IMG/VR virus record: IMGVR_UViG_3300049491_001218
Span: 1 to 32,122 of that record
Length of the DNA: 32,122 nt
Direction: 5' to 3' (one strand)
Source: a virus
Of the stretch, positions 1,137-10,420 are shown piece by piece; the stretch's first letter is position 1; every line of letters starts with the position of its first letter. Under the pieces are notes generated by a model. That model was given only the letters and a program-made list of their open reading frames with translations, was not told the DNA's origin and did not search any database. The position numbers were made by a program, and so were the translations under genes.

Positions 1137-3095
1137 ATGAGAATAAACGAGCAAAATACCCTAGTACTAACAGTAGATGACTGGCAAGCTGCTGGGTTGT
1201 CATATAAAATATATGAACATGGACGCGCTCGTAACCAGATTGAATGCACCACCGTGGGTGGCAATGGCCGCAAAGCTGAAATAGTGTATGAGAGCTTGCC
1301 TGAACGATATAAGGCACCATTGCAGAAGCTTACCAATAATGACCCCTATGGATACTGCCGCACCCAAGCCATCAAACAACTACTAGAGCCAGATACAGCG
1401 GCACACCTTTACTATACCACTGTGCGCTTGGCTGATGGCAACACAATACACCCTGATGCGGCTAATAAGGCATACCAGCAAGCCAGATGGATGAACCTAG
1501 CCACCCGCCTAGCTGACAAAGATGAAACGATAGACCGCGCGGTGCGCAAAAGCCTTACCTCGGATAGATGGAAAGGATTTATACAGGGCTTTAGCAGTAA
1601 TGGTGTGAAGCTGCCTACAAATTATGAGCGGCTGATGGCTAAGCTGCGTGAATACAATACCCGCAACTACGCCTGCCTAATAGATGGCCGCGCCAGCAAC
1701 CAGAACGCCAGCAAGCTGAGCGATGAGCAAATGAAACTGCTGATGCGCCTAGTGAGCGACCATAGGAACCTAGATGATGTGATGGTGAGCAAGCTATTTA
1801 ACGCTGCTATGCGTGAAATAGGTGCAGATGTAACCATAAGTGATAGGACAGTAGGAAGGTACAGACGCAAGCACACCAGCCTTATAGCTGGCGCACGTAG
1901 GGGTGAAAAGGAATTTACCCATCATACCATTGCACAAGTGATGCGAAGCAAGCCTACGCAGGCAGGCATGATGGCCAGTATTGACGGGTGGACTGTGGAA
2001 TTACTATTTCAAGACACTCACTACAACAAAGACAATAAAAAGAAGACTGACTACCACCGCCGCCTAGACTTGGTGGCTCTGGTTGATCCATTCAACGACT
2101 TCATTATGGGCTACGCAGTGGGCGTGGAGAATATAGCGACCATACAGAGGGCGGTAAAGAATGCTGTGGACACTATATATAAACTTACAGGCAAGTATTA
2201 CCTTTTAAACCAAGTACAAAGTGACCATTTTGGCCATGCTACATTGAAGCCTTGGTTTGAGAATGTGGTAAAATACTACACACCTGCACAAGTTGGTAAC
2301 AGTAAGGCTAAACCTGTGGAAAGCTTTTGGCGAAGGCTTAATGATCAATACTTCCGCTTACAACCTAACTGGAGTGGACATAACATAGACAGCCGCAAAG
2401 AAAACCAGCCTAATATGGACTGGATAATGAAGCACAAGCACTTACTGCCAACTGTGGAGCAAGGCTACGAGCAAATAGTGCAAATAGTGGAGCATCATAG
2501 GGCTGAAAGGGAGCAAGAGTGGCTTGAGAGCTTTGGCGCACTGGTGGACAGTGGCCGCATGATAGAGATAACCAGAGAACAGTACCTGTTAAACTTTGGG
2601 ACTACTAAGCCTGACACCAATAAATTGACTCCGAGCGGCCTTCATTTTGAAAAGGACACGGTGCGGTACAGCTATGACTTGCTTGATGTGGCCTTTAAAT
2701 CACTTACATGGGTGGACTGGAAGGTGATATACGATACAGATAACATGAGTAGTGTGCTGGCTGTATGTGAAGATAGAGGGCTGCGCTACCTGCTACCAGA
2801 GGTGTATAAGCCAAGCATGGCCATTATGGACAGAAAGGATGGCGATGGCGCGCACTTGCAAGCCATAAAAGTATTGAAAGCACAACAAACCGAAACCGCT
2901 ACCGAATTTTTGGAAGAGGTGTACGCCGCCACGGAACGCTTGCTACCCGCAGCGAAAGACCCTCGCTTAAAAATGATCATAGCCCCCGATGGGCAGCATA
3001 AGAAAGCCATACAGAAGATAAAGAATGTAGTACCGATAGAGACAAGAGACAATGAGCCTATAGACTGGGCAAAAAAAGCACTGGAAGATTTTTAA
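1137..3095 (+). CDS. MuA-type DDE transposase
   Basis: This 652-residue protein has the size and layout of phage Mu transposase A: N-terminal DNA-binding segments (about 1-250), an RNase H-fold catalytic core, and a C-terminal region for MuB contact. Candidate catalytic residues are Asp283 (in SIDGW), Asp363 (in QSDHFG) and Glu395 (in KPVESFW); the 31-residue gap from the second Asp to Glu is plausible for rve-type cores. It would nick and join the phage ends for integration and replicative transposition. It sits between the Ner-like gene and the MuB ATPase, the standard Mu order. The ATG at 1137 follows the previous stop by 11 nt. Confidence 0.95.
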   Translation: MRINEQNTLVLTVDDWQAAGLSYKIYEHGRARNQIECTTVGGNGRKAEIVYESLPERYKAPLQKLTNNDPYGYCRTQAIKQLLEPDTAAHLYYTTVRLADGNTIHPDAANKAYQQARWMNLATRLADKDETIDRAVRKSLTSDRWKGFIQGFSSNGVKLPTNYERLMAKLREYNTRNYACLIDGRASNQNASKLSDEQMKLLMRLVSDHRNLDDVMVSKLFNAAMREIGADVTISDRTVGRYRRKHTSLIAGARRGEKEFTHHTIAQVMRSKPTQAGMMASIDGWTVELLFQDTHYNKDNKKKTDYHRRLDLVALVDPFNDFIMGYAVGVENIATIQRAVKNAVDTIYKLTGKYYLLNQVQSDHFGHATLKPWFENVVKYYTPAQVGNSKAKPVESFWRRLNDQYFRLQPNWSGHNIDSRKENQPNMDWIMKHKHLLPTVEQGYEQIVQIVEHHRAEREQEWLESFGALVDSGRMIEITREQYLLNFGTTKPDTNKLTPSGLHFEKDTVRYSYDLLDVAFKSLTWVDWKVIYDTDNMSSVLAVCEDRGLRYLLPEVYKPSMAIMDRKDGDGAHLQAIKVLKAQQTETATEFLEEVYAATERLLPAAKDPRLKMIIAPDGQHKKAIQKIKNVVPIETRDNEPIDWAKKALEDF

Positions 3096-6334: not shown

Positions 6335-6724
6335 ATGGAAATTTACAACAAAAAAAACCAAGGAGCACACATCCAAAAGAACCTAAAAGAACCCATTGTG
6401 TCTGTCAGCAGAAACGGCACATGGCGATTTAACCGTGCTGCGATGAATCAGTTATCTATCACCAATGGCGACAAGGTTTCAGTCATTAACAATGGTGAAT
6501 GGTATGTGAGCTTTATTGACGAAGCCGAAGCCTTAGAATTGAGAGAATATGGCAAACAGAAAACCATTCAATTCACTCACAAAATGGCAGCAGTTGGCTT
6601 AATAAAAGCCATAGCCTCCGATGCGGCCAAAACCGTTTTTATGACTTTTGACCTAGAGCCTTGCACTCTGAATGGCCTGTTGGCTTACATGCTTTTAAAA
6701 TCAAAAATACCCCCAAAAATGTAA
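6335..6724 (+). CDS. Unknown protein with AbrB-like N-terminal pattern, 129 aa
   Basis: Residues about 21-60 (VSVSRNGTWRFNRAAMNQL...GDKVSVINNGEWYVSF) resemble the swapped-hairpin pattern of AbrB-type or related small beta folds, in which a conserved GDKV follows a short helix. The second half is helical with no motif I recognise. It follows DUF3164 with a 23-nt gap containing TAAATAACATAACATAAAC, the type of A-rich leader used by several genes here. It is the last coding gene before the structured untranslated stretch. A DNA-binding role is only a guess. Confidence 0.7.
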   Translation: MEIYNKKNQGAHIQKNLKEPIVSVSRNGTWRFNRAAMNQLSITNGDKVSVINNGEWYVSFIDEAEALELREYGKQKTIQFTHKMAAVGLIKAIASDAAKTVFMTFDLEPCTLNGLLAYMLLKSKIPPKM

Positions 6725-6849
6725 GACCACATTTCCCTAATGGTTCAAGGTGGCCGTTCGATTCGGCCACAGGGAGCAACATCAATGCAAGCACAGCTAA
6801 ACGATGAATGACTGATCGCGATACGCTGCCCGCGAAACGAGGGCAATAT

Positions 6850-7003
6850 GGGTAGGTGGCGAAAAATTGGTAAACGCAGGCCCCTGGCAGAGGGGTTACA
6901 GGAAAGATGTTAGCCGCTTGTACAGGCGGAGTTCCAGTAAAGAGAAATCATCAGCTATATGCCAGTGCTGATCCAGTTGCGGGTTCGAGTCCCGCCCTAC
7001 CCA
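6850..7003 (+). tRNA. tRNA-like domain with about 70 extra nt (not a standard tRNA)
   Basis: A perfect 7-bp acceptor stem pairs GGGTAGG (6850-6856) with CCTACCC (6996-7002), followed by discriminator A7003. Next come T8, G9 and a D-arm with 3-bp GCG/CGC stem and G18-G19 at 6869-6870, like class II tRNAs. The T-arm is canonical: GCGGG-TTCGAGT-CCCGC (6979-6995). The anticodon-arm candidate is a CCCC/GGGG hairpin (6881-6884/6892-6895) with loop TGGCAGA, lacking U33 in the best pairing. Between it and the T-arm lie two further hairpins (6914-6929; 6950-6972), making 154 nt in place of about 75-90. No CCA is encoded. It could be a pseudo-tRNA, a tRNA with an insert, or a tRNA mimic. Confidence 0.5.
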
Positions 7004-7112
7004 CGAGACACAACGAAAGTTGCCATGCGCGTGATGCGCAAGGAGCGGCTCTCTATTAGTAACCAATGCCCAGCGAGGTTCGCACCAAAGCATTAGTAGC
7101 GGGCAATAAATT

Positions 7113-7142
7113 GGAGCGGTTTAACCGCCGCTCCTTTATTTT
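7113..7142 (+). terminator. Intrinsic terminator closing the structured RNA
   Basis: GGAGCGG (7113-7119) pairs perfectly with CCGCTCC (7128-7134) around an 8-nt loop, and TTTATTTT follows. It sits between same-direction genes, so it marks the 3' end of the untranslated RNA rather than of an operon of proteins. The next gene begins 14 nt later. Confidence 0.75.
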
Positions 7143-7156
7143 AAGAAACATATACA

Positions 7157-7450
7157 ATGAATAAAAGAACAATTCTAGTAGATATAGAAAACAAAAATCA
7201 TACTGGCTATGATGCTAAGGCAGCTCTATGGGCAGGCCAGATACGTAACTACCATTGTGAAGATTTAGAGGAAGCAGAGCGGGCATTGCTCTTTTATTTA
7301 AAAAGCATTAAAAAGAATGGCCAACTGCAACCACATGAGCATTTCAAAACAATATGGGCTAATGACAGACAAAGCTTTGAGCTGCACAGAATAGATATTG
7401 TAGGTAAAGGGGGTTCTATCAGGCTGATAGCAACTATAAAATACAAATAA
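7157..7450 (+). CDS. Unknown protein, 97 aa
   Basis: I do not recognise the family. It is mixed in composition, with a central helical, acidic stretch (CEDLEEAERALLFYLKSI, about 33-50) and short beta-like segments at both ends (RTILVDIENK; SIRLIATIKYK). No signal peptide or membrane segment is visible. It begins 14 nt after the terminator of the structured RNA, so its transcription must come from read-through or a promoter I cannot identify. The start is preceded by AAGAAACATATACA. Confidence 0.7.
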   Translation: MNKRTILVDIENKNHTGYDAKAALWAGQIRNYHCEDLEEAERALLFYLKSIKKNGQLQPHEHFKTIWANDRQSFELHRIDIVGKGGSIRLIATIKYK

Positions 7451-8094: not shown

Positions 8095-8733
8095 ATGAGC
8101 AGATCAATTGGAATCACCGACTTCTTAAACAAGCGGTTTGACTATTACCCACTGGAGGGAAATTGGAAGCAAACCCTTGGAGTGCCTGAAAAGAATTTTA
8201 GGATGATCGTTTACGGACATCCTGGTAATGGAAAAACAGAGTTTTGCATACAGATGGCTAAGATGATGGCTAAACACTGCAAAGTGTACTTCAATAGCTT
8301 TGAGCAAGGCATAAGTAAAAGCCTACAAGATGCGCTTATCAGGAACGAAATGCATGAGGTAAGTGGCCGCGTAATGTTTGGCGACAAAGAAAGCTTTGAT
8401 GAAATGATAGCTAGGCTGAAGGGTAAAAATAGCCCTAAAGTTGTGTTCATTGACAGCCGAGACTATTTAAACCTTACTGACCAGCAATTCAAAAAACTGA
8501 TAGAGCTTTTCCCTCGCAAAAGCTTTGTAATTATTTGCTGGGAGCTGGCTCAAAAGCCACGCGGACAATATGCCAAGGCTATCGAATATATGTGCGATAT
8601 TAAAGTACATGTAAAGGGTTTTCGCGCCTACCCAAGAAGCAGGTTTGGCGGCAATTTGCCCTTTGTTATTTGGGATAAGCCCACCAATGTAAGTGTAGCA
8701 AATGACCTGTTTAATCAACCTCAGCGAGCATGA
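8095..8733 (+). CDS. RecA/KaiC-like P-loop ATPase
   Basis: This 212-residue protein has Walker A GHPGNGKTE (41-49, Lys47-Thr48) and a hydrophobic strand ending in acid, KVVFIDS, as Walker B. The segment KVYFNSFEQG after the P-loop helix resembles the RecA/RadA/DnaB core, where a Glu after the second strand acts in catalysis. It is compact, with no zinc finger or helicase lid I can identify. Likely roles are single-strand DNA handling or helicase loading in phage replication. Its stop overlaps the next start (ATGA), so the two products are probably coupled. Confidence 0.82.
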   Translation: MSRSIGITDFLNKRFDYYPLEGNWKQTLGVPEKNFRMIVYGHPGNGKTEFCIQMAKMMAKHCKVYFNSFEQGISKSLQDALIRNEMHEVSGRVMFGDKESFDEMIARLKGKNSPKVVFIDSRDYLNLTDQQFKKLIELFPRKSFVIICWELAQKPRGQYAKAIEYMCDIKVHVKGFRAYPRSRFGGNLPFVIWDKPTNVSVANDLFNQPQRA

Positions 8734-9173: not shown

Positions 9174-9527
9174 ATGCAAATATTATTTACTGGGGAAGAT
9201 AAAACCCTGAAACTAGACCTAGCTGATGCCGATGGCAATGTGCTGAATTATGCCGACTTGGATGATATGAAAGTGATTGCTACCATAAACAGAATAGTGG
9301 TAGCAAAGTACAGCAAAGAACCATTGGCGGGTTTTGATGATATAACCATAGGTGATAATGCACATCAGGCGCAAATATTGCTCACCCGCCAGCAAACTTC
9401 CACCTTCAGCACAGGTATGCTGCGCCTGCAAATTGATATGATAATAACAGATGCTGACTTTAACGCAGGCAGGCTTGATAGCCAAGAGGCTGAGGTATTT
9501 GAAGTAAAGAAAGGAACACACTCATGA
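9174..9527 (+). CDS. Probable fibre/baseplate adaptor, 117 aa
   Basis: The protein is beta-rich, with alternating segments such as [20 protein letters not shown] and [15 protein letters not shown], reminiscent of the N-terminal attachment domain of baseplate upper proteins (BppU-like). I cannot confirm the family. It overlaps the collagen-like gene by 4 nt (ATGA), so the two are probably made together. It would anchor the fibre, but its place in the early/middle block, far from the tail genes, is unusual. Confidence 0.6.
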
Positions 9528-10420
9528 TAGTAGTACACACGTCTCCGAAAAATAAAGTGGTAGCTAGAACGGCTGAACAGGTGGAGGTGGTAACTGCGCT
9601 GGCGGTTGGAGCGCAAGGTAACACAGGAGCTACTGGAGCGCAAGGCATTCAAGGACTCAAAGGTGATACTGGTAACACAGGAGCTACTGGAGCGCAAGGC
9701 ATTCAAGGACTCAAAGGTGATACTGGTAACACAGGAGCTACTGGAGCGCAAGGCATTCAAGGACTGAAGGGAGACAAAGGTGATACTGGCAACACTGGAG
9801 CAACTGGAGCGCAAGGCATTCAGGGTAATGCGGGCGCAGATGGCAAAACCATTCTAAACGGCTCAGGCGCACCTAGCAGTGGCCTTGGCTCTAATGGAGA
9901 TTTTTATATTGACACCGACGCTAAGATATTTTATGGTCCCAAAGCTGTGGGCGCATGGCCTGCTGGCACACCTATAGGAAACCCTGTGCTAGCTCAAAAC
10001 GCTTCCGCCATTTCGGTTGGAGCTGTCACAACTAACCAAACTCTTGCAACTATAACAATACCTGCAGGAAGGCTAAGTGTTGGCGACAGCATAGAGGTAA
10101 CCTATATATGGAGTGCTAATAATAATGCCAATTCAAAATCACCAAACTTGTACATAAATGGAACAGTAGGCCCTGTGCAAAATGATAGCCTAGCTAACAA
10201 CCAGTACCTGCAAAAGATTGTGATATTCAAAGTTGTTTCATCAGTATTGCTAAGGTGTGTATCGCTGGCTAACTCTAGCTATACATCCACATCAGGCAAC
10301 CCTAGCAACTGCACTGTGAATATTGCTAACGCCATTACTATTGACTTTAAAGGCCAAAAAGCCGTGGCTGGAGACACCCTGACTCTGGAGCATTACGCAG
10401 TAAAAATTATTAAAGCTTAA
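9524..10420 (+). CDS. Collagen-like fibre protein
   Basis: A short N-terminal segment (about 30 residues) precedes a Gly-X-Y stretch (about 32-108) built of units such as [18 protein letters not shown], then a linker typical of phage fibres ([22 protein letters not shown]) and a beta-rich C-terminal head of about 150 residues ending at 298. Collagen-like repeats form trimeric rods in phage tail fibres, and the head probably binds a surface or is a trimerisation tip. It is coupled to the preceding 117-residue gene. Placement between replication and GemA-like genes, away from the tail module, is odd and suggests a cargo cassette. Confidence 0.82.
9617..9826. repeat. 54-bp tandem repeats in the collagen-like gene
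   Basis: The first two units (9617-9670 and 9671-9724) are identical over 54 bp. The third (9725-9787) carries 9 extra bp, coding for one further GDK triplet, and a fourth diverged partial unit starts at 9788. Each unit encodes six Gly-X-Y triplets. Exact identity of neighbouring units points to recent duplication, and copy number may vary without changing frame. Confidence 0.92.

Follow-up and report, generated by a model that had tools for sequence, protein, structure and literature searches.

In mitochondrial tRNA punctuation, and likewise with the t-elements of plant mitochondria, RNase P and RNase Z cut polycistronic transcripts at intergenic tRNAs or tRNA-like structures (PMC4919922). 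RNase P cleaves model substrates composed of an acceptor stem and a T-arm (reviewed in PMC11143913), and a structure in the C4 antisense RNA precursor of phages P1 and P7 is cut by bacterial RNase P (cited in PMC11143913). Thus tRNA-like processing signals in mitochondria and single RNase P substrates in phage RNAs are already known. The early region of phage T7 uses RNase III sites as recurrent intercistronic RNA signals for cutting by a host nuclease.

The elements analysed in this work resemble mitochondrial punctuation and t-elements in being tRNA-like structures between genes of polycistronic transcripts, but they lie in phage operons, are non-decoding and multi-copy, often consist of the acceptor/T half alone, and their cleavage is presumed. 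They are recurrent intercistronic signals like the T7 RNase III sites, with a different fold and a different presumed enzyme. The C4 precursor yields one antisense RNA, whereas the mimics recur between many genes and have a true T-loop and acceptor stem. AT1-type minimal RNase P substrates (PMC11143913) have the same architecture (acceptor stem, T-stem and T-loop); however, AT1 is a laboratory construct, while the mimics are natural, contain a GG-bearing linker and have no encoded CCA. We found no description of multi-copy intercistronic minimal tRNA mimics in phages in open papers (subscription papers were outside the scope), and the family of minihelices is apparently undescribed. From sequence comparison, we consider it probable (roughly 60%) that the mimics are cut out of the polycistronic phage transcript by host RNase P and RNase Z, as in tRNA punctuation.

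The DNA studied (the window) is the whole of a 32,122-nt virus record. Its transposase gene (1137-3095) matches MuA-like transposases of Bacteroidota phages, the closest being that of Elizabethkingia phage TCUEAP3, and the window also codes for a MuB-type AAA ATPase, a DUF3164 protein and a RecA/DnaB-like ATPase; these genes mark the virus as a Mu-like transposable phage of Bacteroidota. Two tandem repeats were observed elsewhere in the window: one of 54 bases (9617-9822), encoding collagen-like Gly-X-Y repeats in the ORF 9524-10420, and one of 12 bases (610-644, LGAQ repeats) in the repressor-like gene 1-867. The gap 6725-7156 is part of the early region, in which every gene is on the + strand, and contains a minihelix (6734-6779), an oversized cloverleaf (6850-7003) and an intrinsic terminator (7113-7134). 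The coordinates and motifs that a first-pass annotation had given for the gap were all present in the sequence. The features are as follows.

6734..6779, + strand: minimal tRNA mimic (minihelix), 46 nt (leave-one-out model R2, model R1, family covariation)
6785..6811, + strand: eight-codon ORF, MQAQLNDE, starting 9 nt past the end of the minihelix helix (read from sequence)
6827..6845, + strand: hairpin TGCCC...GGGCA, just upstream of the 154-nt element (pairs 6828-6831/6841-6844, P 0.98)
6850..7003, + strand: oversized tRNA-like cloverleaf, 154 nt (Rfam tRNA score, pairing probabilities)
6880..6972, + strand: structured insert of the 154-nt element (partition function)
7025..7096, + strand: 23-codon ORF, MRVMRKERLSISNQCPARFAPKH, starting 21 nt past the 154-nt element (read directly)
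7113..7142, + strand: intrinsic terminator (terminator scan, stem P 0.93)

The acceptor/T helix of the minihelix has 12 bp (5+7: 6734-6738/6771-6775 and 6750-6756/6764-6770), formed by TCCCT with AGGGA and by GTGGCCG with CGGCCAC, and is capped by the T-loop TTCGATT (6757-6763). The 11-nt linker 6739-6749 (AATGGTTCAAG) carries GG at 6742-6743, in the place of the D-loop G18-G19 facing the T-loop. There is no anticodon arm, and the discriminator G6776 is followed by C6777-A-A. The minihelix was not among the matches of the window to Rfam (sensitive scan, tRNA RF00005 included), and no Rfam match to the family was obtained in the window and the related loci scanned. A covariance model built from the other 31 minihelices, the window copy excluded (leave-one-out model R2), found it as the sole match in the 32 kb (49.2 bits, E 3.8e-9); model R1 scored it at 51.8 bits. 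A second T-loop minihelix had previously been proposed at 6734-6775, and these results bear it out with the extent 6734-6779.

The 154-nt element has a perfect 7-bp acceptor stem (6850-6856/6996-7002; 8 bp if 6849 and 7003 pair), a tRNA-Leu-like D-arm with GG and a T-arm (6979-6983, loop 6984-6990, 6991-6995). A 5-6 bp hairpin (6880-6885/6891-6896) with the non-canonical loop TGGCAGA, lacking U33, occupies the anticodon-arm position; an extra structured region of about 80 nt is present, and the discriminator A7003 is followed by C7004. The tRNA-like domain claimed by the first-pass annotation was thereby confirmed: the Rfam tRNA model (RF00005) scored 35.3 bits over 6850-7003 (cut-off 29, 94 nt left unaligned), a match seen in the sensitive scan only, the fast whole-window scan listing none. 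The element shares acceptor, D and T features with RF00005 tRNAs but differs in its length and in an unusable anticodon loop. ARAGORN found no tRNA, 6850-7003 included. A functional tRNA was rejected on the length, the TGGCAGA loop without U33 and the missing ARAGORN call; a tmRNA was also rejected, as there was neither an Rfam tmRNA match nor an ARAGORN tmRNA call.

The partition function places insert hairpins at 6880-6896, 6901-6935 (with 6914-6929 nested) and 6950-6972, and the TGGCA and TGCCA loops of the insert could form a kissing pair. Searches for a sequence homologue of the 154-nt element gave only generic T-arm matches by blastn in phages and zero matches with a D-arm pattern in IMG/VR; consequently, its inner stems are predictions from folding and lie outside the covariation support. 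Of the two hairpins described as GNRA-like in the gap, CAAC-GAAA-GTTG (7011-7022) is a clear GNRA hairpin and the other is not. Copies of GGGCAATA at 6841 and 7101 and of TGCCC at 6827 and 7067 are where they had been reported. The long-range helix proposed from them was rejected, since local pairing was favoured in the folding model (P 0.98 for 6828-6831/6841-6844 and 0.85 for 7067-7071/7101-7105).

An intrinsic terminator had been claimed directly after these structures, and the scan agreed: an 8-bp stem (GGAGCGGT/GCCGCTCC) with a 6-nt loop at 7113-7134 is followed by TTTATTTT. The next longer gene starts at 7157, beyond the terminator, and the ATGs after the two mimics open only ORFs of 8 and 23 codons. 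The eight-codon ORF may be due to chance; the ATG of the 23-codon ORF has the spacing usual for the oversized tRNA-like class. The 5' arm of the terminator occurs a second time as GGAGCGGC at 7042-7049; this copy could be paired with GCCGCTCC (7127-7134), giving an alternative fold that might have an antiterminator role.

A separate transcript of about 290 nt ending at 7142 is a possible candidate. If 6850-7142 were a stand-alone regulatory small RNA, with its 5' end made by RNase P and its 3' end by the terminator, this would fit its own terminator, dense structure and possible kissing loops. We regard this as very improbable, given that the excess stability is weak and that a homologue was not found. 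Folding energy was only mildly unusual (z -1.91 for 432 nt, z -2.01 for 155 nt) and is by itself weak evidence for the gap elements, the case for which therefore rests on the family. Membership of the GOLLD/ROOL-like ornate RNAs, also suggested earlier, found no support: no Rfam family of this type matched, even with E values up to 10 allowed, and the related elements are short signals between cistrons.

Searches of IMG/VR with the flanking genes (6335-6724 and 7157-7450) found no homologues. Related loci were gathered through relatives of the ATPase 8095-8733 (7 loci, then 80 viral and 34 genomic) and oriented by their early genes. A T-arm-only scan of 122 related loci yielded 66 T-arms on the coding strand and 4 on the opposite strand (1-6 in dinucleotide shuffles). 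The elements ranged from minihelices through full cloverleaves to oversized forms, and 52 of the 64 distinct ones lay within 120 nt of the start of an ORF opening with ATG. We also searched IMG/VR with a pattern for one sequence class that made no pairing requirement. This pattern-only set comprised 75 elements, 74 of them followed by an ATG-initiated ORF. Most started 1-4 nt past the stop codon of the preceding gene, and the distance from T-stem to ATG was 8-39 nt for most. Although selected without pairing, 61 of 68 had a T-stem of at least 5 bp. Up to 5 copies occurred per locus, several phages having 3-5. In 14 element-rich early regions, the median gap was 71 nt with an element and 11 nt without.

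Such placement could also suit elements that are never cleaved. A tRNA shape 5' of the AUG might aid initiation, or couple termination to re-initiation, by helping the ribosome onto leaders in hosts that seldom rely on Shine-Dalgarno pairing. The ATG is almost always a few to about 35 nt beyond the element and the prior stop codon 1-4 nt before it, and the elements often precede the transposase gene, as does a minihelix in an Elizabethkingia phage. We nevertheless think translation-start elements unlikely: the variable ATG spacing argues against docking with a fixed geometry, and the pre-tRNA-like C past the discriminator (see below) is left unexplained. It is improbable that a tRNA-shaped element beside the start codon is a general device by which Bacteroidota phages recruit or position ribosomes without cleavage in Shine-Dalgarno-poor hosts; if true, bacteria would have a natural equivalent of the internal ribosome entry that viruses achieve with tRNA mimics.

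In an alignment of 32 minihelices, 99.4% of the cells were paired, and two-sided changes occurred in 97 cells (shuffle mean 23.5, slid controls 8-31). Compensatory double-sided changes, which the first-pass annotation had named as a check on the stems, were present in 9 of the 12 pairs. The rows of this alignment (A2) were partly chosen for pairing, which inflates the covariation score; the pattern-only set and the leave-one-out model are thus the cleaner checks. Beyond its training set, model R1 matched five loci, all on the coding strand (L020, L045, L058, L076 and L109), and a Phocaeicola genome with an ATG shortly downstream. In host genomes, where few candidates were scored per genome, R1 matched one of 296 Bacteroidota genomes, namely the genome that had been seeded, and zero of 100 from another phylum. 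The consensus minihelix gave no or chance-level blastn matches against named phages and plasmids, so the family is invisible there to plain sequence search. The tRNA-like elements of the gap are beyond chance. The earlier reading as a tRNA mimic was right, with two mimics in the gap, one of them from a widespread family with compensatory stem changes.

The dull alternative, decayed or captured tRNA genes without function, draws on the tRNA-Leu-like D-arm of the 154-nt element and on tRNA-like genes called by ARAGORN in some relatives. It is extremely improbable in view of the minihelix covariation, the strong strand bias, the near-universal position before an ORF and the multiple copies. Decayed tandem tRNAs are not supported for the minihelix in particular: these elements are multi-copy, strongly covarying and fixed in placement, and hence under selection. 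Decay is largely refuted for the minihelix and possible for the 154-nt domain.

Full-size and oversized tRNA-like elements occupy the same kind of site as the minihelices. A Porphyromonas phage has a 71-nt tRNA-like element (45.5 bits) just before the transposase gene, and the hankyphage early region has one of 83 nt (42.2 bits) with a GCAA-capped hairpin at the anticodon region. Oversized forms were found in L018 (131 nt) and, in Bacteroides acidifaciens, in L267 (159 and 134 nt) and L268 (163 nt), all exceeding the Rfam tRNA cut-off; in three of these four, an ORF of 55-68 codons begins 14-24 nt further on. As oversized forms are recurrent, the 154-nt element of the window is one of a kind met elsewhere. 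L267 and L268 carry phage-type replication and recombination genes that are not Mu-type, and seem to be prophage regions of a non-Mu kind. Among their oversized elements (L267 2828-2986 and 3745-3878, L268 3804-3966), one appears to nest a second T-arm within the first.

Next to the helix, the mimics have a host-like 3' flank. The base after the discriminator is C in 72 of 73 tRNA genes of Pedobacter terrae and Bacteroides acidifaciens, and CCA is encoded after only about 10 of the 73. C also follows the discriminator in 61/61 pattern-only mimics whose acceptor ends in GGGA, mostly as CAA. Both window mimics share this flank (G6776-C6777 and A7003-C7004), and both have 12 bp from T-loop to discriminator (5+7 and 7+5 bp). 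The non-coding C flank common to mimics and host tRNAs is the best sequence evidence suggesting pre-tRNA-like handling. The conserved C could, on the other side, have a cause other than processing.

Stability or protein-binding structures with a borrowed tRNA fold, protecting mRNA ends or binding a tRNA-binding or phage antitermination protein, are a further explanation, to which we assign a small probability. A protein-binding site would also be compatible with intercistronic hairpins that occur in several copies and conserve their linker and tail, and variants without a T-loop occur; by itself, however, such a role does not account for full and oversized cloverleaves at equivalent sites or for the 12-bp rule.

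Under the preferred reading of the mimics as cutting signals, the gap 6725-7156 would hold two cis-acting pre-tRNA mimics within the polycistronic early transcript. Host RNase P would cut on the 5' side of the acceptor stem, and the cut past the discriminator would be made by host RNase Z or by some other enzyme of 3' processing. The message upstream would be freed with its 3' end just past the stop codon; the one downstream would begin with a short leader rich in A. In the window, the products would be a message ending at 6724, pieces between the mimics and an RNA of about 138 nt (7004-7142) closed by the terminator. Strand bias, placement between genes, compensatory changes, the C flank and the shared site of the cloverleaf forms point towards cleavage. 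As full-size and oversized forms are found at equivalent sites, constraint seems to act on the top half and the position only; that the anticodon part, the size and the sequence are free to vary fits enzymes recognising the acceptor/T domain and the elbow. Likely variants with other 7-nt loops in place of the T-loop speak against cleavage, as RNase P and RNase Z would recognise them less well, and so does the window itself, where the mimics precede ORFs of a mere 8 and 23 codons, unlike most relatives.

If cleavage occurs, a large group of gut, oral and environmental Bacteroidota phages would cut their messengers with the tRNA-maturation enzymes of the host, at copies of a natural, minimal RNase P substrate placed between the genes. 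Mitochondrial tRNA punctuation would then have an equivalent in phages. Expression of phage operons would become directly testable in a phylum with unusual translation starts, and a 46-nt cutting module that can be excised would be of practical use in Bacteroides genetics. The family is a new target for annotation pipelines, its elements being unannotated and usually missed by tRNA finders.

Other elements were observed in the related loci. Hairpins without a T-loop lie immediately upstream of MuA-sized ORFs in L017, L031, L036, L058, L064, L093, L106, L109 and L121; they are built like the mimics, several end in GGGARC, and their loops include AGCGAWA, CATCGCT and TTCGGGT, among others. ARAGORN called tRNA-Met (CAT) genes within or beside transposable phages (L024 6655, L026 4584, L039 13772, L076 1173 and L102 1291), some with initiator-like GGG/CCC anticodon stems. 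Another recurrent gap sequence, approximately GCCCATAGCCATACAGRCCACGAGC...CTGT (66-73 nt), is unrelated to the T-arm elements and precedes an 80-aa ORF in L128, L129, L140, L146, L150, L154, L157 and L165; a pseudoknot is possible in it, its starting CAG pairing with the terminal CTGT.
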